Part shown: one piece after another, positions 2,328 to 62,220 of the stretch
Layout of the letters: each line of letters starts with the position of its first letter
Position numbering within the stretch: position 1 is the stretch's first letter
NCBI GenBank assembly: GCA_026002875.1
Contig: BPGE01000001.1
Span: 806,001 to 870,000, forward strand
Length of the DNA stretch: 64,000 bases
Direction: 5' to 3'
From: Bryobacteraceae bacterium
GTDB lineage: Bacteria; Acidobacteriota; Terriglobia; Bryobacterales; Bryobacteraceae
Notes under the pieces: model-generated
Seen by the model: only the letters and a program-made list of their open reading frames with translations
What the model was told of the DNA's origin: nothing
The model's database searches: none
Made by a program: the position numbers and the translations under genes

Positions 2328-2333
2328 ATCCTA
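2328..2333 (-). promoter_or_regulatory. -10-like TAGGAT upstream of the ceramidase-like gene
   Basis: Reverse-strand TAGGAT abuts ATG 2327 and lies 12 nt before ATG 2315. If it is a -10 element, transcription would begin just before the second ATG. No -35 element or strong Shine-Dalgarno is seen. Confidence 0.4.
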
Positions 2334-2416
2334 CACGAGGCGTTCCGCCGCGTCATCGCCCGCCCCTGGGGCTCAAGTGTATATTGAGTGGTTTGATCCA
2401 GCCGATTGAAGCGGAA

Positions 2417-2782
2417 ATGGCAGCCATCCAGTCGCAGCAATGCCCCGTTTGCGGACAGAAGCCCCTCGTGCGGCGCAAGCGGACGTTCCTCGAGAAATTC
2501 CGGCACGCCGCCATCTACCGCTGCCCCATCTGCCGCTTCGAAGCGTCGGCGCCGCTCACGGTCGTCTATCCGCAGTTGTCCCGCACCGCCAGGTGCCCGC
2601 ACTGCGGAACGACGGAACTCATCGTGCTCGCCAGGCGCGACCCCATCGAGCGCATGTACCGCGGACCGCTCAGCACGCTCTGGCGCTGGCTGGGCGCGCC
2701 CCTGCTATACTGCCGCTACTGCCGCCTGCAATTCCACGATTTCCGCAAGCGTCTGAGCTCCAACGGCGATAGAATCCGCTGA
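2417..2782 (+). CDS. Small protein with four CxxC zinc-ribbon pairs
   Basis: The 121-residue protein from ATG 2417 contains four CxxC knuckles: C9/C12, C36/C39, C60/C63 and C99/C102, spaced as two zinc ribbons. An in-frame TTG at 2384 would add 11 residues without any motif. There is no signal peptide or membrane span. The family is not recognised; zinc ribbons of this type serve in nucleic-acid binding or as structural modules. The stop is separated from the esterase start by a single base, and a -10-like box for the esterase lies inside this gene's 3' end. Real coding is supported by the regular cysteine pairs and the absence of any opposing gene. Confidence 0.65.
   Translation: MAAIQSQQCPVCGQKPLVRRKRTFLEKFRHAAIYRCPICRFEASAPLTVVYPQLSRTARCPHCGTTELIVLARRDPIERMYRGPLSTLWRWLGAPLLYCRYCRLQFHDFRKRLSSNGDRIR
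2770..2775 (+). promoter_or_regulatory. -10-like TAGAAT before the esterase gene
   Basis: TAGAAT lies 8 nt before ATG 2784 with no Shine-Dalgarno between, the spacing expected for a leaderless transcript. It sits within the last codons of the zinc-ribbon gene. Confidence 0.45.
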
Positions 2783-2783
2783 C

Positions 2784-5500: not shown

Positions 5501-6326
5501 CAGCGATCCCTCGTGCGGCCCTCTCCGCGCCGTCCAGCCCGCGCGCGGCGGCGAGATAGGCCTCCAGACCGGCGCGTTCCGCCGCTCCCATCCGGAATAC
5601 GACGTTCCGCTCGAAATAACCGGCCACCAGCTCTCTGGAAAAGCCCCTCGATTCGGCCTCGCTTTTAATGATAGCGTCCAGCGAAGCCCAGCCGTAAGAA
5701 AACGACCCTTCGAGCAGCGCCTCCAGGCCTTCCGTCGCCTCCGGTGAACGCCCGGCCCACACGGCGAACACCATCGGCAGCCCCGTCAGTTCCAGCCACG
5801 CCTGGCCAAGGTCCAGCCACTCCAGCCCCGAAACCTCCGGCTCCACCGCCAGCGCCGCGTCCCCGATCAGAAGCGCCGCGTCCGCCTCTGCCAGCATCCG
5901 GCTCAGATCCGGCGGCATCGCGGCCACGCGCGGCGCCGCCCCGAAGCGTTCGCGCAACACGATCCGCGCCAGCTCCACCGAGGTCCGCGAGCCCGCATCC
6001 GCGGCCAGCGTCCCGATCTCGTCCCACGGCTTCCGCGTGAAAAGGAGGATGCTCCGCACCGCCCCCCGGCAGGCAATGCACAGGCTGGAGACCGGCGTCA
6101 GACCGTGCCGGTCCATTTCGATGACGGGAACGATGCCGAGATCGGCTTCGCCCTCCACCACCCTGCGGGCGCACTCCGAGGGAACGGCGAACTCCACGTC
6201 GGCCGCGTCTTTCTGGGGCCCGTGCAGCAGCCCCCACACCAGCGGCGCCGTGTTCAGGTAGCTGACCGCGCAGATCTTCGGTTTTCCCGGACTGCCCCCG
6301 TTCGTGCTCAAGTACGAGTGTACCAT
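5457..6326 (-). CDS. mqnA: Chorismate dehydratase of the futalosine pathway
   Basis: MqnA removes water from chorismate to give 3-enolpyruvyl-benzoate, the first step of the futalosine route to menaquinone. The protein (up to 289 residues) starts its domain with ICAVSYLNTAPL, the family's N-terminal signature, and has the periplasmic-binding-protein-like fold pattern GEADLGIVPVIE. Start choice is uncertain: ATG 6326, or an in-frame TTG five codons later that lies 5 nt behind a TACACT hexamer. The 3' end overlaps mqnC by 44 bases in another frame, so the last residues (rich in Arg and Ala) are constrained by two reading frames. Confidence 0.92.
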   Translation of the reverse strand: MVHSYLSTNGGSPGKPKICAVSYLNTAPLVWGLLHGPQKDAADVEFAVPSECARRVVEGEADLGIVPVIEMDRHGLTPVSSLCIACRGAVRSILLFTRKPWDEIGTLAADAGSRTSVELARIVLRERFGAAPRVAAMPPDLSRMLAEADAALLIGDAALAVEPEVSGLEWLDLGQAWLELTGLPMVFAVWAGRSPEATEGLEALLEGSFSYGWASLDAIIKSEAESRGFSRELVAGYFERNVVFRMGAAERAGLEAYLAAARGLDGAERAARGIADDDAERSRRAVPQR

Positions 6327-6427
6327 TGCCGCCGTACTGGCCCTGTTGGAACGTTGGTTTCCAGCGTGTGACAGGAAATCCGTTCATAATGTAGGCAGTG
6401 TTCAAGTCCCAAGGGAGGGTGCGTGCG

Positions 6428-9400
6428 ATGAAACGAATCATTTTCTGTGCGTCCGTCTGGGCGGCATTGGGGGCGACGGCTGCGCTCGCGCAAACGCTCA
6501 ATCCGCTGCCGGCCAAAGTCTTCGGCCAGCCCGGCAAGCCCCGCAGCCTGAACGAACTGAACGCCCCCGCGGCTCTCGCCCCCAACCTGGCCAAGCCCGC
6601 CAGCCTGTTCGGACCCAACAGCGTCGCCGTCGATACCAGCCTCTCCCCTCCCGCCCTCTACATCGCTGACACGGGCAATCACCGCGTGCTGGCCTGGCGC
6701 GACGCCAGCCTCGCCGGAACGGGCCGGCCCGCCGATCTCGTCCTCGGCCAGCGCAGCTTCCACTCGAGCGCCGCCGTCAACATCACCGCCGCCGGGGCCT
6801 TCACCAGCTCCCTCTACGCCCCCACCTCCGTCGCCGTGGACGCCCAGGGCAATGTCTTCGTGATGGACGCCGGCAACAACCGGATCCTCCGGTTTCCAAA
6901 ACCCTTCGAACAGCCCGAAAGCGAATCCATCCGGGCCGACCTCGTCATCGGCCAGCCCAACCTCCGCACCAACCTCCCCAACCGCAGCTCCACTGCCACC
7001 GCCCCGCCGGCCGCCTCCACCATCAAGACCAACGGCGCCAACACGGGCGGCATCCAGAACGCCTCCATCGCGTTCGACTCTGAAGGCAACCTCTGGCTCA
7101 GCGACTCGGGCAACCACCGCATCCTCCGCTATCCCGCCGCCGCCGTCAGCGGTCCTTCCAACACCGGCGCCTCTCCCAGGGACATCGCCGCCGACCTCGT
7201 CCTCGGCCAGCCTGACTTTGTCACTGCCACCCCCAACGCCGGCCGCGCCGACCCCGCCCGCGGCGACCGCCTGCTCCGCAGCAGCATCCGCTTCGGCGGC
7301 CCGCTCGCCTTCGACTCCCAGGGCAATCTCTTCTTTGCCGATGACCTCGCCCGCGTCCTCGTCTGGCAGCCGCCATTCTCCAACGGCCAGCCGGCCTCCC
7401 GTCTCCTCGGCATTTACATTGCCCGGGCGGGTTCGGAGCCGTTGGCCGCCGTCAACCCCTTCACTTTCGGCTTCCGCCTCGGACAGAGCGGCTCCACGGT
7501 CATCTTCGCCGGCGGTCCTCAGGGATTGTGGTGCGAGGGCGATTACCTCTTTGTCGCCGACACCTACAACAACCGTGTCGTCCGCTATGACCCCGTCGCC
7601 AGCTGGCCTCCGGAAGATCCCCTCCAGGGACAGATCTCCCCGCGCATGAGCGCCGTGTTCGGCCAGGAGGATTTCAGCCAGAATACCCCCAACCGCTGGC
7701 AGTTCGCCGAGCCCACCGCCGAATCGCTCCGCTCTCCCGTCGCCGGCGCCTTCGCCGCAGGCCGCATGTTCATCGTCGATCAGGGCAACCACCGCGTCCT
7801 CGGCCTGCCGTACGACGCGGACAACCACCTCCCCCTGCCTGCCGACGCCCTTTACGGTCAGATGGAATTCGGCCTCCGCTCGCCCAACATGCCCGAAGGC
7901 CGCGAGCTCAGCGGCGGCTCGCTCCAGGTCATCGCCGGAAATCAGATCGTCCCTCTCGGCGTCGGGCCAGCCATGGCCTTCCATTACCCCTCCAATCCGG
8001 ACGAGCCTCCCCACCTCTACATCGCCGACACCGGCAACAACCGCATTCTGGCCTATTGGGACGCCCGCCAGTTCGATTTCGGCAAAACCGCCGACCTCGT
8101 CATCGGCCAGGTCGGCCTCACGCGCAGCCTCGCCAACTCGCCCCACAACAACCCGGCCGTTCCCACCCGCACCGGCCTCCTCCTGCCTTCCTCCGTCGCA
8201 GTCGACCCCGATGGCAATCTCTGGGTCGCTGACACCGGCAACGGCCGTCTGCTCCGCTTCCCCCGCCCCTTTGATAGCTGGGCGACGCACCCTGAAGCCG
8301 ATGTCGTGCTCGGCCAGCCGGACTTTGAAACCACTCCCGACGGCGAGCCCCGCCGCGACCGCCTCTTCCGCCCCATCAGCGTTGCCGTCACCGGCGACGG
8401 CAAAGTCATCGCCGCCGATCCCGCCCATCACCGCGTCCTCGTCTTCCAGGGACCCTTTGAAAACGGCCAGCCCGCCGCCGTCGTTCTCGGCCAGCCTGAC
8501 GGCGAATCCGCTACCCCGGGCGCCGATCTGACCCGCATGAACTTCCCGCTCTCCGTCGCCGTCGACGCCTCCGAGCGCATCTACGTCGCCGACTCCAACA
8601 ACAACCGCCTCCTCGTCTTCGAGCGCGCCGAGCTCCTCGCTGATGGCATCGGTCCAGGCCTCGCCCTCAACCTCGCCGCCGGCAACCGCAACGTCACCCC
8701 CGTCGACGTCAAGGTCAACCGGTCGAACGGCGACATCTGGATCGCCGACGGACGCCAGAACCGCGTCCTCCGCTACCCGAAATACGAAGAGCTCCTCTTC
8801 GCCGCCGCGCCCCAGTGGAATTACGGCTTCTCCACTTACGGCCCGCGCACGCTCGCGCTCGACAACACCGGCGGACTCTACGTGGCCGACGCCGCCCACC
8901 GCATCACCATGCACTATCCGCTGCACGGCGTCATCAACGGCGCCAGCGGCTTCCCCCGCGTTGCGCCGGCCACCATCGTCCTTCTCCAGACCGACGGCGC
9001 CCGCTTCACGGACGCGCCCGCCGAAGCCGGCGGCGTGCCGCTGCCGAAAGAACTGTCGGATGTCGAAGTCCTCGTCGAGGGCCTGCCCGCCCCGCTCCTC
9101 AGCGTCGGCGAAACCTCCATCCGCCTGATCGTCCCCAAGGACGCTCCCATCTCCGGCCTCGCCGAGTTCCTCGTCCGCCGGCCCTCGACCGGAGAGATCC
9201 TCGCCCACGCCTACATCACCATGTCCAACGCCTCTCCGGCCGTTCTGTTTTCCGGAACCAATCCCGCCACCCAGGGCCAGGCGCGCGCCGTCAATCAGAA
9301 TGGCACGCCCAACAGCTCCTCCAGTCCCGTCTCTGTCGGCCAGGAGCTGACCGTGTATCTGACTGGCACCGGGCCCGTCGACGGCCTGCCTCCAGACGGA

Positions 9401-9655
9401 GAAGCTCCGGGCGCGGAAGTCCCCGTGGGCGACGTTCAGGCCTATGTCATCACGTCGTCCGCTCTCATCCAGGCCACGGTTCTCTCGGCCACTCTGGATC
9501 CCGAAGAGCCCGGCGTCTGGCGCGTCCGCATCCGCGTGCCTCAGGTCGCTGCCGACGGCAATTACGGCTTCGCGGTGATTTACCGCAGCACGGCCAGCAA
9601 CCGGATGCCGGACGGCTCGCGCACCTCGCTGCCGACCATCGCCATCCGCAGGTAA
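6428..9655 (+). CDS. Large secreted NHL-repeat beta-propeller protein with Solibacter-type C-terminus
   Basis: The start at ATG 6428 is set by a strong Shine-Dalgarno (aagggagg, 6411-6418) and an immediate signal peptide (MKRIIFCASVW...ALAQ); the frame is open 30 bases further upstream. The 1075-residue protein has about ten NHL-type repeats, each with a D-x-x-N-x-R-(I/V/L)-L core (DTGNHRVL, DAGNNRIL, DSGNHRIL, DTGNNRIL, DTGNGRLL, DSNNNRLL). Most are followed by an ADLVLGQ-type strand, suggesting one or two six-bladed propellers. The last 230 residues (from about VEGLPAPLLSV through LTVYLTGTGPVDGLPPDG) match the domain I know as TIGR03437 from Solibacter. NHL propellers bind proteins or polysaccharides; the function is unknown. 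The gene stands alone. Confidence 0.85.
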   Translation: MKRIIFCASVWAALGATAALAQTLNPLPAKVFGQPGKPRSLNELNAPAALAPNLAKPASLFGPNSVAVDTSLSPPALYIADTGNHRVLAWRDASLAGTGRPADLVLGQRSFHSSAAVNITAAGAFTSSLYAPTSVAVDAQGNVFVMDAGNNRILRFPKPFEQPESESIRADLVIGQPNLRTNLPNRSSTATAPPAASTIKTNGANTGGIQNASIAFDSEGNLWLSDSGNHRILRYPAAAVSGPSNTGASPRDIAADLVLGQPDFVTATPNAGRADPARGDRLLRSSIRFGGPLAFDSQGNLFFADDLARVLVWQPPFSNGQPASRLLGIYIARAGSEPLAAVNPFTFGFRLGQSGSTVIFAGGPQGLWCEGDYLFVADTYNNRVVRYDPVASWPPEDPLQGQISPRMSAVFGQEDFSQNTPNRWQFAEPTAESLRSPVAGAFAAGRMFIVDQGNHRVLGLPYDADNHLPLPADALYGQMEFGLRSPNMPEGRELSGGSLQVIAGNQIVPLGVGPAMAFHYPSNPDEPPHLYIADTGNNRILAYWDARQFDFGKTADLVIGQVGLTRSLANSPHNNPAVPTRTGLLLPSSVAVDPDGNLWVADTGNGRLLRFPRPFDSWATHPEADVVLGQPDFETTPDGEPRRDRLFRPISVAVTGDGKVIAADPAHHRVLVFQGPFENGQPAAVVLGQPDGESATPGADLTRMNFPLSVAVDASERIYVADSNNNRLLVFERAELLADGIGPGLALNLAAGNRNVTPVDVKVNRSNGDIWIADGRQNRVLRYPKYEELLFAAAPQWNYGFSTYGPRTLALDNTGGLYVADAAHRITMHYPLHGVINGASGFPRVAPATIVLLQTDGARFTDAPAEAGGVPLPKELSDVEVLVEGLPAPLLSVGETSIRLIVPKDAPISGLAEFLVRRPSTGEILAHAYITMSNASPAVLFSGTNPATQGQARAVNQNGTPNSSSSPVSVGQELTVYLTGTGPVDGLPPDGEAPGAEVPVGDVQAYVITSSALIQATVLSATLDPEEPGVWRVRIRVPQVAADGNYGFAVIYRSTASNRMPDGSRTSLPTIAIRR

Positions 9656-9681
9656 CGGCGCCGCTCAGGTCCGCATCAACC

Positions 9682-9709
9682 GCAGCGCCGGCTCGCGCGC
9701 CGGCGCTGC
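9682..9709. terminator. Strong hairpin between convergent genes
   Basis: A perfect 11-bp inverted repeat (GCAGCGCCGGC / GCCGGCGCTGC) with a 6-nt loop lies between the convergent ends of the NHL gene and the FliT-like gene. No T-run follows on either strand, so it may be a T-less terminator or an RNA-stabilising hairpin. Nothing else is seen in 9656-9801. Confidence 0.45.
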
Positions 9710-9801
9710 CGCACCATGGTCGCGGCCCGGATTCTTTACGTGCGTTCGATGCGCGCTTCCCGCCGCCCGCCCAGCCCGCCAGACCCCTCGCCAGGCTGCG
9801 C

Positions 9802-10146
9802 TTAGCCTTCCACGTCGAGCAGCATCGGCTCGCGCGCCGCGGCCAGCCGCTCGAGCGAACTTGCAAACCGCGCCTGCGCCTCCTGCGCCGCCAGCGCCTC
9901 AGCCGCCTCCCGCCGCAGCGCCCGCGCTTCCTGCTCGCACGCTTCTCCCAGCTGCCGCACCCGCTCCAGCGCCGCCCGCGCCGACGGCGGCGCGCCGCCC
10001 TCCCGGCACAGCTGCAGGACCTGCTCCAGCAGCCGCTGCCGCCGCTCCAGCGCCTCCAGATACTGCGGATCGCGCCGCCGCAGCAGCTGCAGCAGCTCCT
10101 CGCTCGCCGCCGCCAGCTCGGCCAGCGGTTTGTCCATCGCGCTCAT
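9802..10146 (-). CDS. FliT-like flagellar chaperone candidate
   Basis: The 114-residue protein is almost wholly alpha-helical with heptad-like Leu/Ala spacing (LAAASEELLQLLRRR, LERRQRLLEQVLQL). It has no Cys and no signal peptide. It directly follows fliD with a 4-base ATGA overlap, the place where many bacteria keep fliS or fliT, the small helical export chaperones of flagellin and cap protein. The helical pattern and position fit FliT, which binds the FliD C-terminus, but there is no diagnostic motif. FlgN-like is an alternative. Confidence 0.55.
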   Translation of the reverse strand: MSAMDKPLAELAAASEELLQLLRRRDPQYLEALERRQRLLEQVLQLCREGGAPPSARAALERVRQLGEACEQEARALRREAAEALAAQEAQARFASSLERLAAAREPMLLDVEG

Positions 10147-11510
10147 GCGTTGTTCGGCCGCTTTCCGAACGCCACCGTCTGCAGGCTCTCAATCGCCGCG
10201 TTCAGCATCGTCTTCTGCCCTTCCAGCCGCGCCAGCATCGTGTCGGCCGCCTGCAGCCGCGCCACCAGCGTCAGCCGCGTCGCGCTCACCCGCTCGTAGA
10301 TCGCATTGATCTGATCCGTCAGCCGCTGATCGGTCCGGTCCAGGTTCTGAATGAACGCCGCCAGCGAGCCCGTCAGCGGGTCGCTGTATTGCGACAGCCG
10401 CCCCTCCAGCGCCGACAGCCCCGTCCGCCCGTCGCCCAGCAGCGCGAACACCGCGGGTATCTCGCTCTCCCCGAGCCCCTGCACCACCGAACCGTCGAAC
10501 GTCATCACCCCGTCCGACCCGATCGAGACCCCCAGCTCGAACAGGCTCCCCCGCGGCCCCGTCCCCCGGTATCCCGTAATCTCCTGCAGCGCCGCCTTCA
10601 GATCCTGCACGAACGATTCGCCCTGCAACGGCCCCCGCCGCTCGCCCGTCTGCGCGTCCAGCTTCTCCACCAGTTTGTTGTACGCCGCCACGAAATTCTG
10701 CAGCGCCCCCGCCACTCCCGCCGCCGAAGGCCGCACCCGCACGTCCGCCGTCTGCCCCGGCCCCAGCGTCGCCTTCAGCTCCAGCGTCACTCCGGCCACC
10801 GCGCCCGTGATCGTGTTCGACGCAGACCGCATCGCCACCCCGTTCAGCTCGAACTGCGCGTCCGACCCCCCCGAAATCACCGTCAGCAGATTCGACCCTG
10901 CATCGCCCGGCGTCTGCCGCAGCTCGATCGCCCGCTCGCCCGTCTCGTTGGCCGTGATCGACAGATAATACCGCTCCGGTCCCGAGCCCGCATCCAGAAT
11001 CGACGCCGTCACCCCCATCCCGCTCGCGTTGATCGCATCGCGCAGCCCCGCCAGATTGTCCTGTCCCGGCTCGAGCGCGAGCGTCCGGCTCTCTCCCCCC
11101 ACCACCAGCTCCACCGCCCCGCCGCCCCCGCTCACCGGTCCCGCGTCCAGGCTGGCGAAGCCCGCCGCCGTCCGCGCCACCGCCTGCGTCGCCAGGCTCG
11201 TGATGTTCGTGATCCGGTACAGCCCCGGCGCCGCCCCCGCCCCCGCCGACGCCTGCACCGCAAACGAACTGCTCGACGCCGTCAGCGCCCCTCCCTGCGA
11301 CAGCCGCCCCAGCTGCCGCAACGACGCCGCCAGATCCGCCACCGCCGTCCGCAGCTCGGCCGCCGCCATCTTCCGGCTCAGCAGCCCCGTCTGCTCCTGC
11401 TCCAGCGCCCGCGCCGGCAGGCTCGCAATCGACACCGAACGCTCCAGAATCACCTGGAAGTCGTCGGAAAAGCTGCTGATCCCGGTGAATGTCAGTGGGG
11501 CAAGCGCCAT
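10143..11510 (-). CDS. fliD: Flagellar hook-associated protein 2 (filament cap)
   Basis: FliD caps the flagellar filament and folds flagellin at the tip. The 455-residue protein has the usual layout: an N-terminal helical D0 part beginning FTGISSFSDDFQVILE, beta-rich middle domains (SSSFAVQASA, LRDAINASGMGV, YYLSITANETG), and a long C-terminal coiled coil (LTDQINAIYERVSATRLTLVARLQAAD). The motif DAINASGMGVTASI is characteristic of FliD. Length is in the normal range. No flagellin or basal-body genes are in the window, so this is an outlying flagellar locus, preceded by an SDR and a diguanylate cyclase gene on the same strand. Confidence 0.9.
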   Translation of the reverse strand: MALAPLTFTGISSFSDDFQVILERSVSIASLPARALEQEQTGLLSRKMAAAELRTAVADLAASLRQLGRLSQGGALTASSSSFAVQASAGAGAAPGLYRITNITSLATQAVARTAAGFASLDAGPVSGGGGAVELVVGGESRTLALEPGQDNLAGLRDAINASGMGVTASILDAGSGPERYYLSITANETGERAIELRQTPGDAGSNLLTVISGGSDAQFELNGVAMRSASNTITGAVAGVTLELKATLGPGQTADVRVRPSAAGVAGALQNFVAAYNKLVEKLDAQTGERRGPLQGESFVQDLKAALQEITGYRGTGPRGSLFELGVSIGSDGVMTFDGSVVQGLGESEIPAVFALLGDGRTGLSALEGRLSQYSDPLTGSLAAFIQNLDRTDQRLTDQINAIYERVSATRLTLVARLQAADTMLARLEGQKTMLNAAIESLQTVAFGKRPNNA

Positions 11511-11572
11511 CGTGACGGCTCCGCGATTTCCTTATCGGACCGCCGGCCTGCCTTTTGGAGGAAAATCCGCTC

Positions 11573-12403
11573 TCAGCCCCGGAAAATCCGCCGCAGCGTG
11601 AACATCCCCGCATGCGACCGCGAGTGCTCCAGCTTCCGCCAGTTGTCGCTCACGCTGATCAGCATCCCGCTGACATGGTTCGACCGCGACGAGCACAGAA
11701 ACCGCGCCAGCGCCACCTGCTCGTCCGGCCGCGTCCCCCCGGACGTGCGCAGCTTCAGCGCCGCCTCCAGCTCGGCCGCCCCCGCCCGCGCCCCAGCCGC
11801 AATGATGTCGTCCGTCAGGCTCGTGTAGGTCGGCCCCGGATTCATGCAGTTGACCTGCACGTTCGCCTCCCGCACCTCCTCGGCCAGCGTCTCGGCCAGC
11901 CGCGCCAGCGCCGCCTGCGCCGCGCTGTAAGACGAGAAATTCGCCCGCGGATGCGCCGCCCCCGGCCCGGCCAGGAACACGATCTTGCCCTCCCGCGCCG
12001 CCAGCATGTCCGGCAGAACCGCGCGGCACAGATGCATCGCCCCGCCCAGGTTCGTCTCCACGCCCTCCATCCATTCTCCGGGGTCGCATTGCGCCAGCGG
12101 TCCGATCGCCCCGAACGAGCCGTGCGCGCACACCAGCGCCCGCACCGGCCCGGCGAGCTCCCGGAACCGCGCCACCGCCTCCTCCACCTGCCGGTAGTCC
12201 CGCACGTCGCACAGAAAGCCCGCCGCCCGGCCGCCGGCGTGCTCGATCTCCAGCTGCGCCAGCTCCAGCTCCGCCTTCGACCGGGCCAGCAGCCCGACAT
12301 GCGCCCCCAGCCCCGCAAACGCCAGCGCCAGCCTCTTGCCGATCCCCCGTCCTGCGCCGGACACGAGCATCGCCCGGCCTTCGAATTCGTTCGCATCCGC
12401 CAC
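11573..12403 (-). CDS. SDR-fold protein lacking the catalytic Ser and Lys
   Basis: The start is GTG 12403, with an AAGGAG Shine-Dalgarno and a TAGGAT box 20 nt upstream. The 276-residue protein has the SDR dinucleotide fingerprint SGAGRGIG (15-22). In classical SDRs the active site is Ser, then Tyr 13 residues later, then Lys four residues after that. Here Tyr159 is kept (SSYSAAQ), but the Lys position is Gln163 and the Ser position is Gly146. NAG is replaced by CAHG at 92-95. The protein may therefore bind NAD(P) without normal oxidoreductase activity. It lies 62 bases before fliD and 46 bases after the diguanylate cyclase gene, so a motility-linked role is possible. Confidence 0.8.
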   Translation of the reverse strand: MADANEFEGRAMLVSGAGRGIGKRLALAFAGLGAHVGLLARSKAELELAQLEIEHAGGRAAGFLCDVRDYRQVEEAVARFRELAGPVRALVCAHGSFGAIGPLAQCDPGEWMEGVETNLGGAMHLCRAVLPDMLAAREGKIVFLAGPGAAHPRANFSSYSAAQAALARLAETLAEEVREANVQVNCMNPGPTYTSLTDDIIAAGARAGAAELEAALKLRTSGGTRPDEQVALARFLCSSRSNHVSGMLISVSDNWRKLEHSRSHAGMFTLRRIFRG

Positions 12404-12423
12404 GGGAAGAATTCTCCTTCCCG

Positions 12424-12429
12424 ATCCTA
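12424..12429 (-). promoter_or_regulatory. -10-like TAGGAT upstream of the degenerate SDR gene
   Basis: Reverse-strand TAGGAT lies 20 nt before the GTG start, leaving room for the AAGGAG ribosome-binding site. It could start a separate SDR-fliD transcript inside the cluster. Confidence 0.35.
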
Positions 12430-12449
12430 GCAGCCTCCCGCGCCCGGCG

Positions 12450-13508
12450 TCACCGGCTTCCCTTGCTCTGATACAGCGCCTGATCAGCCCGCCTCAGCGT
12501 GTCCTCGAGCGATTCGCCCGGCCGGTGTTCGGCCACGCCCATCGACAGTCCGACGCGCAGCCGCAGGGCTTCGCCCCCGACATGGACCTGATAATGGCCG
12601 CTCAGCGCCTGCTCGAGCAGCCGCGCCCGCGCCATCGCGTCCCGCAACGGCGCGGGCAGCAGCGCCACGAACTCGTCGCCGCCCCACCGCGCCGCCAGAT
12701 CGTCGGCGCGCAGCTGATGCTTCAGCCTCTCCGCGAACAGCCGCAGCAGCTCGTCGCCCGCCAGATGGCCGTGCACGTCGTTCACCTTCTTGAAAAAGTT
12801 CAGATCGATCAGGACGAGGCTGAACGGCAGGCCGGCCTCGATCATCTCCCGGGCGCGCCGCTCGAACGAGGCGCGGTTGGCCAGCCCGGTCAGCGGGTCC
12901 CGCTGCGCCGCGCGCTCCACCTCGTCCAGCCGCCGCCGGTAGCACTGCATCTCCCGTTCCAGCTCCTCCACGATCTGGCGGTTCTCCCTCCGCATCTCCT
13001 CCACCAGCGCCGTGATCAGCTGCACCTGGCTCAGAATCTGCTGGCGCAGCTCGCGCAGGTCTTCCCGCTCGGCCGCGCTCTTCAGCCCGCGCGCCACGTC
13101 AAGAAACTCCGACTCGTGGCGGCTGCCGCGCCTCTGCAGCGACGCCGCCGTCTCCTCCAGCAGCTTCACCACCTCGGCCAGCTCCACCGTGCCCGCCAGC
13201 TCCCGGCGGATGAAGTCGTGCGCCGTCTGCAGCGCTCCGTCCAGCTCCCGCCGCGCCTCGGCGAACCCCCGCTCGTCCGGCGCCTTGGCCAGACGCTGGC
13301 GCGCCGCCGCCACCGTCGGCGGCGGCCCCAGGATCTTCTCGGCACAGGGCTGGAACACATGCCGCTCCACGCCCGCCAGCGCCTCCAGATACGCCCCCAG
13401 GGCGCATCGGAACAGCGCATGCTGATACTCCGCCTGCTCCAGGCTGGCTTTCAGACTGATGATTTCCCGGCTCGACATGGCGTTTGCGCCGTTCGCGTCA
13501 TGCCCCAT
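12450..13508 (-). CDS. Diguanylate cyclase with N-terminal helical sensory region
   Basis: The 352-residue protein ends in a GGDEF domain (about 190-350) with an intact WGGDEF (GGDEF 276-280) and, five residues before it, an RxxD inhibitory site (R267-D270). It is therefore predicted to make cyclic di-GMP from two GTP and to be product-inhibited. The first 200 residues are helical, with a coiled coil just before the cyclase (ENRQIVEELEREMQCY), and contain no known sensor domain. There is no membrane span. An alternative start is ATG 13478 (MSSREI). It heads a minus-strand cluster that includes fliD, consistent with control of motility. Confidence 0.88.
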   Translation of the reverse strand: MGHDANGANAMSSREIISLKASLEQAEYQHALFRCALGAYLEALAGVERHVFQPCAEKILGPPPTVAAARQRLAKAPDERGFAEARRELDGALQTAHDFIRRELAGTVELAEVVKLLEETAASLQRRGSRHESEFLDVARGLKSAAEREDLRELRQQILSQVQLITALVEEMRRENRQIVEELEREMQCYRRRLDEVERAAQRDPLTGLANRASFERRAREMIEAGLPFSLVLIDLNFFKKVNDVHGHLAGDELLRLFAERLKHQLRADDLAARWGGDEFVALLPAPLRDAMARARLLEQALSGHYQVHVGGEALRLRVGLSMGVAEHRPGESLEDTLRRADQALYQSKGSR

Positions 13509-13533
13509 ATCGGCCCCCCGCGCCCCAAATTGA

Positions 13534-13547
13534 AGAATTGTAATTCT
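13534..13547. promoter_or_regulatory. Palindrome AGAATT-GT-AATTCT between divergent cyclase and rplU genes
   Basis: A perfect two-fold repeat with 6-bp arms and a 2-bp centre lies in the only A/T-rich patch of the intergenic region 13509-13706. A reverse-strand TACAAT (13542-13537) is embedded in it and could be the -10 of the diguanylate cyclase gene, 28 nt from its ATG. A repressor bound here would cover that box. The rest of the gap shows no gene. Confidence 0.45.
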
Positions 13548-13706
13548 GAATCTTCCCTGCCACAGGGGATTTGCGCCAGCGCGCCCGATCGGCTACCATG
13601 AAAAGTTGTGGCGCTAGGCCGGGTGCCACCGTGCGCCCGGGCGCCTGCCCACCCGCCGGGACAACACTCAGCATCGTTCCCGCAGCGTCATCGAGAGGAT
13701 AGACCC

Positions 13707-14018
13707 ATGTTTGCAGTGATCGAAACTGGCGGCAAGCAATACCGCGTCGCCCCCGGCGATACCGTCCTGGTCGAGACCCTGCCCGGCGAAGCCGGAGCAG
13801 CGGTCGAGTTCGACCGCGTCCTCGCCGTCGGCAAGGACGACGGCACGGTCGTCGCCGGCGCGGAAGCCGCCTCGGCCCGCGTCCGCGGCGAGATCCAGAA
13901 GCACGGCCGCGGCGACAAAGTCATCGTCTTCAAATTCAAAAGGAAAAAGCAGTACAAGCGCACGATCGGCCACCGGCAGAACTTCACCGCCGTGAAGATC
14001 TCCGACATCGTGCTCTGA
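13707..14018 (+). CDS. rplU: 50S ribosomal protein L21
   Basis: L21 binds 23S rRNA in the large subunit. The 103-residue product starts [14 protein letters not shown] and contains [15 protein letters not shown] and the C-terminal GHRQNFT motif, all diagnostic. ATG 13707 is preceded by a GAGAGG Shine-Dalgarno; the frame is open further upstream without homologous sequence. It is followed 19 bases later by rpmA, the usual L21-L27-Obg order. Confidence 0.97.
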
Positions 14019-55416: not shown

Positions 55417-55821
55417 GTGCTGATCGTGGCGGCATTGCTGGCGGCCCTGAATTCCTTCGCCTCTCCCTGCGCGCTGGCGCAGTGGGCCATGGGGCGGGGC
55501 GAGAAACCCGCCGTGCTGGACGTGGCGGTGATGCAGGTGGAGGAGAGGGGCGCGGGGCCGGCGCGGCTCGCCTGGCAGGATCCGGACGTCGAGATCTGGG
55601 TGCGTCCGCTCGATGACGGGGAGACGGCGCTGATGCTGGCGAACCGGGCGAAGCGGCCCGTGAGCGTGGACGTCATCTGGCGGGAGCTGGGGCTGGGAGA
55701 GAAGCGTGCGATTCTGCGCGTGTTCGACGTGCTGAAGCGGAAGAACCTCGGCAAGGTCCACGGCGGGTTCGCGCACCGCCTGGAAGCCGGTTCATGCGCG
55801 CTGTTCCGGCTGGAGCCATGA
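55417..55821 (+). CDS. Orphan protein resembling the C-terminal beta domain of GH27 alpha-galactosidases
   Basis: The 134-residue protein starts with GTG 55417. Its C-terminal part, EIWVRPLDDGETALMLANR followed by VSVDVIWRELGLG and ending in GSCALFRLEP, follows the anti-parallel beta-sandwich at the end of GH27 alpha-galactosidases. The catalytic barrel is missing. It could be a stand-alone sugar-related domain or the tail of a decayed enzyme. It overlaps the GH42 gene by 4 bases, so the two seem coupled. Confidence 0.55.
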   Translation: MLIVAALLAALNSFASPCALAQWAMGRGEKPAVLDVAVMQVEERGAGPARLAWQDPDVEIWVRPLDDGETALMLANRAKRPVSVDVIWRELGLGEKRAILRVFDVLKRKNLGKVHGGFAHRLEAGSCALFRLEP

Positions 55822-58016
55822 AACAGAACTTGCTGTTCCTGTTTTTGCTGCCCCTCATGGGGGCCCGCGGCGGCGATGGCGTGCTGCCCGTGTCTGTCTG
55901 GTACGGAGGAGGCAAGGCGCGGGCGCCGATGCTCGAGCCGGATCCGCGGGCGAAGAAGGAGCAGTGGCGCGGGGACATCCGGAAGATCAAGAGTCTGGGG
56001 TTCCGCACGTTCCGCTGCTGGGTGGACTGGGCGTCGGCCGAGCCCGAGCCGGGGCGGTACGACTTCTCGACGCTCGACGTGCTGCTGGAGCTGGCCGAGG
56101 AAGAGGGCATGCGCGTCTTCGTGCAGGTCTACATGGACTCGGCGCCGGAATGGGTAGGGAGGCGGTATCCGGATGCGCTCTTCGTGTCGTCCAACGGCCT
56201 GGCAGTGCAGCCGGAGTCGTCCCCCGGCTACTGCCGGGACCATCCGGGCGTGCGGCAGGCCGACAACGCCTTCTACCGGGCTCTGGCGCAACGCGCGTCG
56301 CGCAGCAGGGCGATGCTCGGGTGGGACCTGTGGAGCGAGCCGCACGTCATCAACTGGGCGAACCCGACCTATATTCCGAACCCGGAATTCTGTTTCTGCC
56401 CGAATACGAAACGGCGTTTCCGCGCATGGCTTCAGAAACAGTATGGTTCCCTCAACGCGCTGAATGCGGCATGGTACCGGAGGTATTCTTCGTGGGAAGA
56501 AGTGGAGCCGAACCGGCTTTCCACGATTCTGAGCTACACCGATTACATCGACTGGAAGCGGTTTATCGTCGACAAGCTGGGCGAAGATCTGCGGGAGCGC
56601 TACGAAGCGGTCAAGGCGGGCGCTCCGGATCTGGCGGCGACCAGCCATGCGGCGGGAGTGGGTCTTTTCGCTTCTCCCCACTGGTGGGAAGGGCAGTCCG
56701 ACGACTGGGTGATGGCGCGGCAGGTGGATTATTACGGGACGAGCTTTTATCCCAAGCACTCGGCGTTCGTGGACCGGGACCCGATGTGGCGCGGAGCGCT
56801 GCTGGATTTCACGCGCAGTTTCGGGTTTGGCGAAGGGCGGAAAGGTTTCGTGATCGGAGAATTGCAGGCGGGATTCGGCACGATTGCGGTGAATGTCAGC
56901 CCGGAAGTGACGCCGGATGATCTGTGGATCTGGGCGTGGTCGGCTCTGGCGCGCGGAGCGAAAGGGATCCACTTTTATGCGTTCTATCCGATGAGCACCG
57001 GATACGAGGCGGGCGGGTTCGGGCTGATCCACCTGGACGGGACGCTGACGGAGCGGGCCTGGGAAGCGGGGCGGTTCGCGCAGGCCGTGGCGAAGCACGA
57101 GAAGCTGTTTTTCGAAGCGCGTCCGCCGCGGGCAGAGGTGGCGGTGGTCTACAATCCACTGGCGCATTTCGTGGGCGGGCGGCAGCGGCAGACGGCGTAC
57201 GGAGGACCGCAGGGCGAGGTGGCGGGGATCGAGCGGGACTCGCTGCTGGGCGTCTATAAAGCATTGTGGCCGGAAAATGTTCCGGTCGATTTCGTGCACG
57301 CCGGATCGCTCGAGGCGGAAACGCTGGCGCAGTACCGGCTGGTGTACCTGCCCTATCCGCCGATGCTGCCGTCGTCTCTGGGCGCGGTGCTGCGCGAATA
57401 CGTGCAGCGCGGCGGGCATCTCGTGGCCGAAGCCCGGGCAGGCTGGAACAGCGAGAAAGGGCGGGCCTCGGACATCATCCCGGGCATGGGCTTGCATGAA
57501 GTGTTCGGGGCGCGCGAAGCCGCCGTGGAGACGGCGCCGGGCGGACGGACGGTTCTGGTGTTCGACGGCGGGCTGAAAGTTCCCGCACGGTGGTTCCGGG
57601 AGGTGCTCGAGCCGATGGGGGGCAGGGTGGCGGCGCGGTTCGAAGACGGGGCGGCGGCTGCGGTGGAGTCCTCTTTCGGCAAAGGAAAAGCTCTGCTGGT
57701 GGGCTCCTATCCGGCCGCCGCGTATCATTCGATGCCGGCCGAGGATGCGCGGAAGTGGTTCCTGTCGCTGCTGGACTGGGCCGGCGTGCGCAGGCCGCTC
57801 GTGGCCGAGGGCGGCGTGGAGGCGCGGTGGCTGGAATCTGGCGCGAAGCGGATCGTGTTCGTCTTCAACCACGGCCGCGGCGCGAAACAGGTGCGGCTTC
57901 ACTGGCAGGAGGGCGGGCGGTGGAGGATCGAGGATCTGATCGAAGGCGGGGCAGGGAAGGCGGAGTTCGCGCTGCCGGGCAAGGGCGTGCGGGTGCTGGC
58001 GTTCGAGAAGGAATAA
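55818..58016 (+). CDS. Exported GH42 beta-galactosidase-like glycoside hydrolase
   Basis: ATG 55818 overlaps the previous stop. The 732-residue protein has a signal peptide (about 1-19). The TIM barrel has the acid/base Glu174 in GWDLWSEPHVINW and the nucleophile Glu348 in VIGELQAGFG, followed by a glutamine-amidotransferase-like trimerisation domain (about 440-640; LVYLPYPPML) and a C-terminal beta domain. The family hydrolyses beta-galactosides; the true substrate is unknown. The 3' end shows high similarity to a fragment at 61560-61622. Confidence 0.87.
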   Translation: MKQNLLFLFLLPLMGARGGDGVLPVSVWYGGGKARAPMLEPDPRAKKEQWRGDIRKIKSLGFRTFRCWVDWASAEPEPGRYDFSTLDVLLELAEEEGMRVFVQVYMDSAPEWVGRRYPDALFVSSNGLAVQPESSPGYCRDHPGVRQADNAFYRALAQRASRSRAMLGWDLWSEPHVINWANPTYIPNPEFCFCPNTKRRFRAWLQKQYGSLNALNAAWYRRYSSWEEVEPNRLSTILSYTDYIDWKRFIVDKLGEDLRERYEAVKAGAPDLAATSHAAGVGLFASPHWWEGQSDDWVMARQVDYYGTSFYPKHSAFVDRDPMWRGALLDFTRSFGFGEGRKGFVIGELQAGFGTIAVNVSPEVTPDDLWIWAWSALARGAKGIHFYAFYPMSTGYEAGGFGLIHLDGTLTERAWEAGRFAQAVAKHEKLFFEARPPRAEVAVVYNPLAHFVGGRQRQTAYGGPQGEVAGIERDSLLGVYKALWPENVPVDFVHAGSLEAETLAQYRLVYLPYPPMLPSSLGAVLREYVQRGGHLVAEARAGWNSEKGRASDIIPGMGLHEVFGAREAAVETAPGGRTVLVFDGGLKVPARWFREVLEPMGGRVAARFEDGAAAAVESSFGKGKALLVGSYPAAAYHSMPAEDARKWFLSLLDWAGVRRPLVAEGGVEARWLESGAKRIVFVFNHGRGAKQVRLHWQEGGRWRIEDLIEGGAGKAEFALPGKGVRVLAFEKE

Positions 58017-58046
58017 GCGCACGACCGCAACCGCGCGGATGTCTGC

Positions 58047-61000
58047 TCAGGGAGCCAGACGGCGCTCGGGCAGTCTGCGGTCGAGCTCCTGAAAGACCCC
58101 GGCTTCGCGCCAGAGAGACCGGTTGCCGATGACGTAGATCGCCTCTTTGGCGCGGGTCACAGCGACGTTGAGAAGGTTGGGGCGCCTGCCTGCCCAGTCT
58201 CGCGCACCTTTCTGCCTCGGATCAGGCGCGCCGAGGACAAAAAACACCGCTTCCGCTTCGCGCCCCTGCGCGGTGTGCACGGTTCCGACCCGCTGATACA
58301 GCCAGCTCCTTTGTCGCTCTTCCTGCATCCATGCTGTCCAGACGCCGCTCTCCTCGATCAGCTTCCGGAGGCGGTCCGCGACGATGACGAACGGCGTCAG
58401 CACATAAAAATCGGGCTCCACGCGAGCACTGGCAAGGCTTCGGAGAAGTTCGATCAGCGCGTCTCCCTCCTCCGGGCACCATTTTTCGTCGGCGGACCCT
58501 TCCACATGAAACCAGCAGCTCGGCCCGACAATGTCGGCGATTGCGGAACGACGCGGCTCTTTCAGGGAGACCATCTGTCCGGCGTAGGCGATGGCATTGG
58601 AGATGCTGAACATCGGATCCGAGCATCGCCGGTGCACGAGCAGAGGAACGCCCACCGTGCGGCTGCCTTGCTCCAGATGAAATTCGCTCTGACACGGACA
58701 CGCCGCATCCGCGAGGGTTTGAACCGAGGCTGACGGCGCAGCCCAGTCAGCGGCGGAAACCCCGAATTCGCCGCAGATCGCCTCCACGAGTTGATCGGGC
58801 AGCTCGACCACGGGTTCGAGCTGCGCCGGATCGCCGACAACAACGACTCTTTTTGACCGCAGGATCGCGCCCACTGCCGCCTGCGGCAGGGCCTGGCCCG
58901 CTTCGTCCACAAACAGCCAGCCGAGGCTTCCAGACGGCAGATACCGGAACATCCTTTCGACTGAAGCAAAGGTCGTCGACACCAGCGGCACGACGAGAAA
59001 CAGCGAGGACCACAGATCGGGCAGGAGCGAGAGCTTCTCCGGGCCAAGCCGCTGAGGCCTCGTGAACGCATCCATCAGCGCGCCGAGATTGTGCCGGAGA
59101 GGCTTCGCGGCCGCATCGATAAATGCCCGGTGCACCTCCATCGCCGCCCAGAACAGCTGATGCCGGAGACGGTTCAGCTCCTCCGACAGCCACAGACAGG
59201 CGGTCTGCCTGTCCTTATGGGGCAACGCAAAGAACTCGCCGTCCGGCAGGCGCACGCCCGCCGCTTTGGCCGTCTCGATGCGCTTTCGAGCCTCCTGCAG
59301 ACGCTGCTGCAATCTGCCCGCCGTGGCGATGAGGTTTGCGCAGCTCTCCTGCGCCTTGATGTGAGCATCCTGAGCCCTGGCAAAGGATTCTGAAGCTTCG
59401 CGCTCCTGCATCTCCGCCTGCGCCAGCGATTCCTGCAATTCCCGGTGAACACGGGCCCACACGCGGGCGCGGGAAGTGCGGAGGAGCCTCCAGATCCAGG
59501 AAGGCCGGACGCGAAGATGGGATTGCAACGCCTGCCGGCGCTCGCCCGCAACAGCCTGCGCCTGCTCGAGACGACTCCGGCAGGAGGCGAGTTCGCGTTC
59601 GGCGCATTGCACGGCAGCCTGACGTGCGGGAATGGCCTCCTCTGTTTCCTGGATCTTCTCTTCCACGCCTGGCAGAGAAATCAGTTGTTCGCGAAGTTCC
59701 TCGAGTTCCCGGAACCGGCGTTCCCCTTCTGCAAGGACTTCCCGAAAGTGATTCCGGACGCGCTCCCAACGGGCGAGCGCCTCCATGTGATCTGCGGGCG
59801 GCTGCTCGCTGCTGACGATCCGCGGCGGACGTTCCGCTCCCTGTTCGCCGTCCTGACCGGACTCCTGCACCATCACGTTCTGGCCGAGAGCAGCCCTCAG
59901 ATAGGCCTGGAAACTGACCTCATTGTCCCACCAGAAGAACTGCCTGAACCTCGCTCTCTTCTGCATATTGCCGAGAACCGCGGCAATCAGGCCCCAGGTT
60001 TGGCCCTCGCAAAGGGCGTCGGAGAGGGGTTTGAAATAGCCGCATCTGCCTGAACCGGCATCGACGGCTCCGATGCCGGGAATCTCGGCGCTGACGTTTT
60101 CCACGGCCTTGTTGTTGGTCGATGCGATGACCATTTCGTAACCGCGGATGGAGGGATCCAGCTGATACAGGTGGATCCAGGCTTTTCCTGCTGGGATTCG
60201 CTGGCCGGAATGCAGAAACGCGTTTTCGGGATCATCGAACTTGCACATCGCCTCCGCCCTTCGGGCGACGACCGCAGCCACAAGATCCCTCAGCAGCGTC
60301 GTCTTGCCCGTGCCAGGCGGACCGTTGACGGCGAAGATTTGTCCATTTGCTGTCTCATGGAAGGCCAGATTCACCGCGGCCTGCTGCAGCAGAACAGGCG
60401 GGGGACAGCCCGGAGCAGGCCACGCGGCGCGGGGAATCAGGTCTGGCCGGACCGCATCCTCAAGCGCTCTTCTGTCGTCCTTGACGTCACGCCTGGACCG
60501 AGGCTGTTTCATGCGGAGATAGTGCTGCAGGTTTTCAGGCAGCTGTCCGGATCTCAAACGCCCGAGCGCAAGGGAGAGGTCATCCAGAAAAAAGCTGTTG
60601 AGAAGAATGGCTTCCGGCGGATTCCGATCCCATTCGTGCACCTCGGAACGAATGGCGAAAGCCGGCGGTTCCACCCACTCCCGGGGCAATTGCAGTTCCT
60701 GCACCAGCGTGTGAAAGATCTCGTGCAGGACGGGGAGTGTCAGCGGTGGCCGTTTTCTCTCTTCCCCGTGTGCTGTCTGAATCGGAATTTCGGTTGGAAG
60801 ACATTTTTCCAGCAGCTTTGTCAAAACCGGCTCAACGTCGGACCATTGTGCCAGCTCGTGCAAGCCGCCCTTCAGCGCCTTCATGACACCCCAGGCGAAG
60901 CTGGAAATCCGCAGGGCGGGCGATTCCACCGGCTCCCCGCGTGCGCTGAGAGTGATCGTCCCCAGCAGGGCGCTCCTGCGATTGACCGGACGATCCGGGC

Positions 61001-61256
61001 GGCTGTCTCCCCACCGCTCCAGAAGGGCGTTCAGAGCGGGCTGAATGCGGATGGAGCCCAGAGGCACCTGGAAGTAGAGCCTGCGTTGCGGGATTTTCCG
61101 TTCTGGCGGAGCCCACGGGGGCTTTGATTCTCCCAGCATCTCCACGCGCGAGCGATCCCCGCCGACCAGGTCTTCAGGCTTCTGGAATGTTTGCGGTGAA
61201 AGAACCTCGATCGCGCTCCAGGCGAGCAGGATGTTCTCGGGACTGTTTCCAGCCAT
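58047..61256 (-). CDS. Large SF1 (UPF1/DNA2-like) helicase-related ATPase
   Basis: The 1069-residue protein has Walker A GPPGTGKTT (312-320), Walker B LFVDEAGQ followed by VVVGDPAQLEPV, and the C-terminal RecA2 motifs VGTVHTAQGREAEAVFFV and NLLNVAVTRAKEAIYVIGN. This is an SF1B helicase core. A long coiled coil (roughly 500-690: ELEELREQLISLPG and EMQEREASESF) is inserted between motifs I and II. The N-terminal 300 residues are not recognised. ATG 61256 has a GGGAGG site. Possibly a defence or nucleic-acid repair protein; no partner gene adjoins it. Confidence 0.85.
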   Translation of the reverse strand: MAGNSPENILLAWSAIEVLSPQTFQKPEDLVGGDRSRVEMLGESKPPWAPPERKIPQRRLYFQVPLGSIRIQPALNALLERWGDSRPDRPVNRRSALLGTITLSARGEPVESPALRISSFAWGVMKALKGGLHELAQWSDVEPVLTKLLEKCLPTEIPIQTAHGEERKRPPLTLPVLHEIFHTLVQELQLPREWVEPPAFAIRSEVHEWDRNPPEAILLNSFFLDDLSLALGRLRSGQLPENLQHYLRMKQPRSRRDVKDDRRALEDAVRPDLIPRAAWPAPGCPPPVLLQQAAVNLAFHETANGQIFAVNGPPGTGKTTLLRDLVAAVVARRAEAMCKFDDPENAFLHSGQRIPAGKAWIHLYQLDPSIRGYEMVIASTNNKAVENVSAEIPGIGAVDAGSGRCGYFKPLSDALCEGQTWGLIAAVLGNMQKRARFRQFFWWDNEVSFQAYLRAALGQNVMVQESGQDGEQGAERPPRIVSSEQPPADHMEALARWERVRNHFREVLAEGERRFRELEELREQLISLPGVEEKIQETEEAIPARQAAVQCAERELASCRSRLEQAQAVAGERRQALQSHLRVRPSWIWRLLRTSRARVWARVHRELQESLAQAEMQEREASESFARAQDAHIKAQESCANLIATAGRLQQRLQEARKRIETAKAAGVRLPDGEFFALPHKDRQTACLWLSEELNRLRHQLFWAAMEVHRAFIDAAAKPLRHNLGALMDAFTRPQRLGPEKLSLLPDLWSSLFLVVPLVSTTFASVERMFRYLPSGSLGWLFVDEAGQALPQAAVGAILRSKRVVVVGDPAQLEPVVELPDQLVEAICGEFGVSAADWAAPSASVQTLADAACPCQSEFHLEQGSRTVGVPLLVHRRCSDPMFSISNAIAYAGQMVSLKEPRRSAIADIVGPSCWFHVEGSADEKWCPEEGDALIELLRSLASARVEPDFYVLTPFVIVADRLRKLIEESGVWTAWMQEERQRSWLYQRVGTVHTAQGREAEAVFFVLGAPDPRQKGARDWAGRRPNLLNVAVTRAKEAIYVIGNRSLWREAGVFQELDRRLPERRLAP

Positions 61257-61539
61257 CTTCGCCTCCCGGGCGTCCCCTGTTTCCGGGCCGATGATCCGTG
61301 AAACTGGCTTCCGTCGAGCTGCTCGTTGAAGAACAATCTAACACTCTCCGTCGGAAATGGAGGGGGAAAAGCGTGTTCAGCGCGGTGGATTTCCGGCAGG
61401 AAAGCCGGAAACCGGGAGGCAAACTCCGGATGCGCGTCCGGGGCTATTGGCGCGGCAGGAGCCACTGGAGGCGCGTGGTCATTCCTGACGCTGAAGCTGG
61501 CGGGGGCGCGGCTGCCCTGCCCCTCCGCCTGCAGGCGGG
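61257..61539. other. Upstream region of the helicase, with possible gene remnant
   Basis: No intact gene is seen here. One forward frame reads KLRMRVRGYWRGRSHWRRVV near 61423-61482, which could be part of the same decayed glycosidase as the fragment that follows. The helicase's promoter must also lie here. Confidence 0.35.
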
Positions 61540-61622
61540 CCGCAGGGCTGAGGACCGAGAGGAAGGCCGAGTTGGTGCTGCGGGACAAGGGGGTGCGGAT
61601 GCTGGCATCCGAACAGGGGTGA
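61540..61622 (+). pseudogene. Fragment homologous to the 3' end of the GH42 gene
   Basis: The frame ending at 61622 reads AELVLRDKGVRMLASEQG and stop. The GH42 gene ends AEFALPGKGVRVLAFEKE and stop. At the DNA level the 37-base stretch from gctgc... matches at about 30 positions by my hand count. No start codon or upstream domain accompanies it. It is a remnant of a paralogous glycosidase or a duplicated gene end. Confidence 0.6.
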
Positions 61623-61654
61623 AGCCTGGCGAGCGCGGCGATTCAAGACGTTGG

Positions 61655-61660
61655 TATCCT
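61655..61660 (+). promoter_or_regulatory. -10-like TATCCT before the beta-barrel gene
   Basis: TATCCT ends 8 nt before ATG 61669, without a Shine-Dalgarno. Confidence 0.4.
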
Positions 61661-61668
61661 GATATCGC

Positions 61669-62220
61669 ATGGTCTTTGTCAGAATCTTCATTTCTTCCCT
61701 CGTCCTCGCTCTCGTGGCGGTGCGCCCGCTGCCCGCGCAGCATGGCGGGCACAGCAGCCGCGAGACGGAAGAGATCCACCGCCATCATTTCGCCGTGCTC
61801 GCGGGCGGCAGCCATAACACAAAAAAGGACGGCAGTACGATCGGCGCCGATTACGAGTACCGATTCAACCATCCCCTGGGCGTGCTGGCGAGCTTCGAGT
61901 ACGTGGGCGGGGATTTCCGCGAGGACGTGTTTGCGTTCACGGCGGCCTGGCATCCGTGGAAGGGGCTGCGCCTGATTGCCGGGCCGGGCTTCGACCGCGA
62001 ACTGAAGCATCCTGAAGAGACTCATCACACGGACAACGCTCACGCCGCCGCTCCGGAGCACCACGGCAGATACCGCGCCCTGTTCAGGACGGGCGCGGCG
62101 TGGGAGTTCCACTGGAAGGAACACGTCACGTTCGGTCCGGAGATCGCCGTGGACGTTCTGAAGGGTGAAAAGGTCTTCGTCTACGGCATCAACATTGGTT
62201 GGGGCTTTGGCCGCCGGTAG
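61669..62220 (+). CDS. Small secreted His-rich beta-barrel-like protein
   Basis: The 183-residue protein has a signal peptide (about 1-23, ending PLPAQ). The mature part alternates short beta-strands with turns (HFAVLAGGSH, GADYEYRF, GVLASFEYVGGDF, LRLIAGPGFDRE, VTFGPEIAVDVL, VYGINIGWGFGRR), as in 8-stranded outer-membrane barrels. His-rich segments (HGGHSS, HHTDNAHAAAPEHH) may bind metal. No family is assigned. Confidence 0.65.
   Translation: MVFVRIFISSLVLALVAVRPLPAQHGGHSSRETEEIHRHHFAVLAGGSHNTKKDGSTIGADYEYRFNHPLGVLASFEYVGGDFREDVFAFTAAWHPWKGLRLIAGPGFDRELKHPEETHHTDNAHAAAPEHHGRYRALFRTGAAWEFHWKEHVTFGPEIAVDVLKGEKVFVYGINIGWGFGRR

Follow-up and report, generated by a model that had tools for sequence, protein, structure and literature searches.

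Partial duplication of the 3′ end of a GH42 gene around an inserted helicase gene in a Bryobacteraceae genome

In a Bryobacteraceae genome, an intact gene of the GH42 beta-galactosidase family is followed by an antisense helicase gene, and beyond the helicase lies a short fragment that resembles the end of the GH42 gene. How did the end of one gene come to stand on both sides of another? A preliminary description of this DNA reported the fragment as about 80 percent identical over 37 bases and offered two origins, an ancestral tandem pair of glycosidase genes or an insertion after which a piece of the gene end remained. The window, which is the whole stretch of 64,000 nucleotides analysed here, spans C1:806001-870000 in a genome that consists of one contig of 4.86 Mb. 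The comparison set consists of five genomes of the same genus, this one (labelled G000) and the congeners G001 to G004. The following features of the window are relevant.

55818-58016, forward strand: intact gene of the GH42 beta-galactosidase family, recognized from its ORF and from Pfam matches to Glyco_hydro_42 (E 2e-49) and Glyco_hydro_42M (E 2e-21); stop codon at 58014-58016, alternative upstream in-frame ATG at 55794.
57955-58006, forward strand: tail of GH42 at the gene itself, core of the direct repeat, defined by alignment and shuffles.
58017-58046, no strand: GH42/helicase junction, 30 nt separating the two stop codons, which aligns with a 31-nt counterpart in G004.
58047-61256, reverse strand: SF1 helicase of 1069 aa, convergent with GH42, recognized from Pfam AAA_11/AAA_12 and PADLOC MkoC (E 1e-66).
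61332-61347, no strand: AACAATCTAACACTCT, a possible promoter element of the helicase, conserved between G000 and G004.
61561-61612, forward strand: displaced copy of the GH42 tail, defined by alignment, shuffles and a DNA profile, and ending at the TGA at 61620-61622.
61623-61668, forward strand: the flank that originally followed GH42, which runs up to the 183-aa gene and matches the GH42-to-gene interval at the empty site of G003.
61669-62220, forward strand: 183-aa gene with no Pfam or NCBIfam match, found directly after GH42 in the empty-site genome G003.

The resemblance between the two tails extends further than first reported. Positions 57955-58006 and 61561-61612 align without gaps over 52 nt, 43 of which match (82.7% identity), and the 37 bases originally noticed are the core of this alignment. 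Orientation and reading frame are identical in the two tails, and the coordinates and frames agree with the earlier statement that both stop in the same orientation with the antisense helicase between them. The alignment of the two regions, proposed in the preliminary description as a check, is significant: its score of 59 is reached by none of 1000 dinucleotide shuffles (shuffle maximum 37), and chance similarity is rejected on this ground. Other sense windows of the 64-kb stretch score at most 31, and the opposite strand at most 36. A DNA profile (nhmmer) of the GH42 genes of five congeners recovers the tail copy over 55 nt in G000 (E 6e-4) and over 159 nt in G004 (E 9e-32). The full match in G000 spans 52-57 nt, with a weaker upstream extension beyond a 14-nt gap. 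Upstream of the last 50-160 nt, the same profile detects no GH42 similarity on the far side of the helicase in either G000 or G004, and there is consequently no hint of a longer second gene. Of the 98-aa ORF at 61326-61622, only about the last 20 codons derive from GH42, and Pfam gives no match to it; it is likely a misannotation rather than the relic of a second glycosidase gene.

Comparison with related genomes, which had also been suggested as a check, yielded both helicase-bearing and helicase-free versions of the locus. All five same-genus genomes contain a single GH42 orthologue, and the copies in G001-G004 are 81-89% identical to that of the window. The flanks, GH42 and the 183-aa gene, are conserved in G000, G003 and G004, with the cassette present in G000 and G004 and absent from G003; G001 and G002 have GH42 and the 183-aa gene apart and are uninformative about the slot. 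G004 has the same order as G000 (GH42, antisense helicase, GH42 tail, 183-aa gene, then a redoxin-type gene), with GH42 at L046:2275-4494 and the helicase at 7738-4550 on the opposite strand. Its two GH42 tails are 98.4% identical over 122 nt, and in the nhmmer alignment identity falls from 98% over these 122 nt to a hand-counted 50% in the next 38 nt. In G003 the single GH42 is directly followed by the 183-aa gene, and since the empty-site interval AAATCAGGACTTTGGTA...CAT is shared with the tail-copy side of G000 and G004, it is this side that represents the ancestral junction. On the other side, the stop codons of GH42 and the helicase are 30 nt apart in G000 and 31 nt apart in G004, and these intervals align with a score reached by 2 of 1000 shuffles. 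The slot has been seen to contain two alleles of one helicase, 71% identical, or nothing. Because G004 has the same order, the G003 site is empty and a second GH42 is missing there from every relative examined, we conclude that the GH42 3′ end was partially duplicated around a helicase insertion, and that the fragment is no remnant of a second enzyme gene. Of the two origins first proposed, it is thus the insertion leaving part of a gene end that accords with the empty site in G003 and with the longer, near-identical tail copy in G004.

The helicase cassette was probably inserted directly 3′ of GH42 by recombination at the 3′ end of that gene, without a recombinase of its own. The tail copy joins the ancestral flank while GH42 itself joins the helicase, which argues for insertion at the 3′ end with duplication of that end. 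A single-gene accessory cassette, here an SF1 helicase with a likely role against mobile elements, would enter immediately downstream of GH42, and the product would consist of a complete GH42, the helicase and a second GH42 tail still joined to the original flank and gene. This could have come about by single crossing-over of a circular DNA carrying the GH42 end or, in a near variant, through homology at one end and end-joining at the other; an event of the single crossing-over class is the most likely origin of the scar. According to the ORF list and Pfam, no integrase or transposase ORF is present between the tails in either carrier (G000 and G004). No inverted repeats were found at the helicase borders, and the search for short direct repeats there, raised in the preliminary description, returned none besides the tail itself. 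The insert hence lacks the terminal inverted repeats and transposase of a transposon or insertion sequence, and of the features of an integrase-type island it possesses the 3′-end direct repeat but not the recombinase gene.

An experimental parallel has been described in Escherichia coli, where a circular plasmid carrying the end of lacZ gave 56 of 60 clones that were PCR-positive for partial duplication; in 14 sequenced clones, 109-950 bp of the gene end were duplicated, which was attributed to single crossing-over (PMC3240628). This system, with its lacZ-end crossing-over and homology-facilitated illegitimate recombination, resembles the GH42 locus in the duplication of a gene end around newly integrated DNA, but it involves laboratory plasmid conjugation, whereas the GH42 case would be a natural event read from its scar.

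The history of the cassette after its arrival appears more complex. In a tree of one gene, rpoB, G003 and G004 are paired with a bootstrap of 100 and G000 lies outside, and a four-gene tree of the locus supports the same pairing at 0.82. The empty site of G003 is nested between two filled ones in the rpoB tree, a pattern that fits both one gain with one clean loss and movement between species. Corrected for composition, the four-fold-site distance between G000 and G004 is 1.26 (1.04-1.62) for the helicase; four flanking genes pooled give 0.67 (0.58-0.77), and rpoB gives 0.44. Helicase GC content is 0.63 in G000 and 0.57 in G004 against 0.67 for the window, and at four-fold sites the helicase has 0.70 against 0.89; part of the helicase divergence could stem from weaker codon constraint. 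Within GH42 of G004, the body is nearest to G003 (151 sites shared with G000 and 194 with G003), whereas the last 403 nt are nearest to the helicase carrier G000 (46 and 32 sites, respectively), a marginal contrast for which a Fisher p of 0.017 is the best of four cut-offs (p 0.017-0.075).

As the divergence of the helicases at four-fold sites is roughly double that of the flanks and their GC contents differ, yet they share a common GH42 junction, a later exchange of the slot's cargo between species is suggested. The excess at four-fold sites and the switch of pattern over the 403 nt of GH42 favour such movement, and our preferred history is a single initial insertion, after which the helicase was exchanged by way of the GH42 end. 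Recombination through this end would have swapped the helicase allele between species, and recombination between the tails would have homogenised those of G004; the latter could also delete the helicase cleanly. The junctions in G000 are eroded and old. That the tails of G004 are almost identical suggests that they recombined with each other recently or that the event itself is recent; either recent self-duplication or gene conversion could account for it.

The same data bear on two simpler histories. One old insertion could have been inherited vertically by G000 and G004 and lost precisely from G003 via the tails, with no exchange between species, provided that the helicase evolves fast and that gene conversion homogenised the G004 tails. 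With G003 and G004 paired in the rpoB tree, one gain and one loss are parsimonious, the two carriers share a junction, and the fall in identity at the edge of the G004 tails looks like the edge of a conversion tract. This history is nevertheless rather unlikely in view of a helicase synonymous distance about twice that of the flanks and a GC gap of 6 points between the species. Those differences, together with the unlike ages of the tails, would suit a scenario in which related helicases entered at this gene end twice, independently, and duplicated the tail each time, but the junction common to G000 and G004 aligns at equal spacing, which is unexpected unless insertion is site-specific, and makes independent arrivals very unlikely.

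Two other explanations concern the tail itself. Duplication of a 3′ end with the target gene kept intact is a hallmark of integrase islands, and the locus might be the relic of an island that used the GH42 3′ end as its attachment site and has since lost its integrase. An example of such an island is SGI1, located at the 3′ end of trmE (PMC8409611). Like these islands, the GH42 insert lies at a 3′ end, where the gene has stayed complete and its tail is repeated. It differs from them in that neither carrier shows an integrase ORF inside the repeats; it also comprises one gene, has repeats of 52-122 nt whose lengths and ends are unequal between carriers, and has no second site; the helicases of G002 and G003, located elsewhere, have no flanking tail repeats. 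A lost island is therefore quite improbable. The tail's presence, taken by itself, would also agree with an ancestral tandem pair of GH42 genes, of which the second has been reduced by decay to its tail. This origin is rejected as extremely improbable, considering that the similarity is limited to the tail, that the G003 site is empty, and that a tandem orthologue occurs in none of the five same-genus genomes and none of six loci fetched from other genera. Nor does an intact second glycosidase gene occupy the slot in any genome examined.

The proposed recombination at the GH42 end without a dedicated recombinase has partial counterparts among known systems. A minimal mobile element is defined as a cassette without mobility genes that is incorporated by homologous recombination (as quoted in PMC3082526). 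Those described in Neisseria likewise place a whole-gene cassette between two conserved genes, with presence varying among strains (PMC3082526), but the GH42 slot adds the duplicated 3′ end of the upstream gene and holds one kind of cargo, the helicase, or none. The microcin H47 island is likewise small, is flanked by imperfect direct repeats and is without recombination genes of its own; it differs in its size of 13 kb and in that its excision has been shown experimentally, also without homologous recombination (PMC3191183). The GH42 slot resembles a minimal mobile element with a scar, and an integrase island minus its integrase, without corresponding to either in full. The arrangement is interesting rather than categorically new, and such scars, sought in open-access papers, are not claimed here as unreported.

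The cargo belongs to a widespread group. The helicase contains AAA_11 and AAA_12 domains (Pfam), and its best match in a defence library is MkoC of Mokosh (PADLOC PDLC03924). The match covers positions 255-950 of the 1136 in the profile, and the protein stops at the end of the helicase match; the C-terminal part of MkoC is missing from it. It thus shares the SF1 helicase region with MkoC of Mokosh type II (E 1e-66), but differs in that the match stops at position 950 and in that Pfam finds no PLD domain. A review lists a PLD nuclease domain, PF13918, for Mokosh I and II (PMC10952713), and because no PLD-like domain was found, the helicase is not filed as Mokosh. Its relatives are spread across many phyla: in GTDB genomes, 424 candidate stretches were confirmed and 80 kept. 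Relatives are also present in 728 plasmid and 5 phage records, of which 14 and 1, respectively, cover 80% or more. In G002, type III CRISPR genes (csm3, csm2 and one that is cas10-like) lie beside a relative (L051:295-7209). By association, the helicase likely plays a role against mobile DNA. Upstream of it, AACAATCTAACACTCT is the only conserved stretch 5′ of the helicase start between G000 and G004 (score 32, null maximum 27 in 500 shuffles), and from this conservation may be a promoter element of the helicase. The interval between helicase and tail in G000 and G004 and a GH42-tail-like remnant in G003 have no spacer in common save 16 nt shared by G000 and G004.

That remnant (L048:375-1773, C2) lies upstream of a glycosyltransferase gene, with its stop in place (E 1e-7). 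Next to it is an antisense gene that is similar to CARF-PD(D/E)XK nucleases in its C-terminal part (PADLOC E 2e-6). The remnant is absent upstream of the orthologous glycosyltransferase in the other four genomes.

Tail duplication does not appear to be a habit of the helicase family. Of the 80 relatives kept, 77 were given with 2.5-kb flanks, 75 of them testable, and 80 with flanks of up to 8 kb, of which 76 were tested. A direct repeat across the helicase at E below 1e-6 is present at four of these 76 loci (L086, L109, L126 and L162), the first being G004's own record. Outside G004, no gene-tail repeat was accepted among the 76 loci with flanks up to 8 kb, and a family-wide habit is rejected on this basis. 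L162 has no gene tail at its repeat. At L109, from a Curvibacter MAG, a 120-nt repeat surrounds a helicase relative and a methyltransferase gene (1557-6383). A malate synthase tail was considered and rejected there, since 1744 plasmid records contain a relative of part of the repeat (90% identity over 40 nt), and we regard it as a dispersed repeat; several of these records have an annotated DUF1010 ORF there. At L126, from a Sporocytophaga MAG, a 166-nt repeat (80% identity) with a strong hairpin lies on either side of the helicase relative (7735-13929). It also encloses genes that, judged by eye, are IS66-type transposase-like.

A second arrangement of this kind exists in the same genome. In G000, infC (L188:1878-3376, that is, C1:1071878-1073376) is followed by a small ORF, a PemK/MazF-type toxin gene and, over 47 nt, a second infC tail that matches the first at 98% and contains the stop. 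The small ORF upstream of the toxin has no Pfam match and is likely its antitoxin, and we read the arrangement as another, fresher tail-duplication scar around an accessory module. G003 and G004 have no toxin module after infC, but their next gene differs and they do not offer a clean empty site. Thirty loci with PemK modules were fetched and 29 tested; three carry a repeat, which copies a gene tail only at infC of G000, and in the control 4 of 53 shifted positions carry any repeat.

A survey of 1.264 Mb of G000 found 14 isolated repeats of 36-400 nt, five of which copy an ORF tail downstream. This is not a significant enrichment (2.24 expected; 12 of 200 random shifts reach five), and two of the five flagged copies are near insertion sequences; a third, which looks convincing, is the glycosyltransferase tail at L209 (13598 and 15174). 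In 0.8 Mb of G002 there are six repeats; a single one was flagged, and it proved to be a pair of thioredoxin-like paralogues. It is unlikely, and suggested only tentatively, that the GH42 3′ end is a recurrent, recombinase-free docking slot, that the infC/PemK module arrived by the same trick, and that host-gene tails are generic docking points for defence cassettes. If true, helicase alleles of unlike age and composition would have reached one junction through the end of a host gene, and the tail repeat would make the cassette cleanly removable. The GH42 locus itself indicates that a single accessory gene can enter beside a working gene, harmlessly to it and without its own recombinase, and leave a readable scar. 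Tail scars could serve for finding recently gained defence genes, and could gauge the share of natural single crossing-over in building the genomes of the little-studied Bryobacteraceae.

Additional repeats were observed elsewhere in G000. In a glycan cluster (L209:13598-15232; C1:1503598-1505232), the tail of a glycosyltransferase gene at 13598 is repeated 1.5 kb downstream at 15174 (59 nt, 88%), beyond membrane-protein ORFs, and the gene seems to be frameshifted near its end. At C1:1513001-1518656 (survey positions 707001-712656), an identical 243-nt repeat surrounds tandem IS3-like units; the transposase unit between the repeats is present in two perfect tandem copies of 1190 nt each.

An inverted repeat lies just 5′ of the 183-aa gene (61640-61671 in the window, about 8150-8183 in L046, and in L047). 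It is perfect in G004, where it reads ATCAGGA-CTTTGGTA-TCCTGAT ahead of the ATG, has one mismatch in the second arm in G003, and has an altered first arm (TTCAAGA) in G000. It may be an operator or an RNA hairpin.
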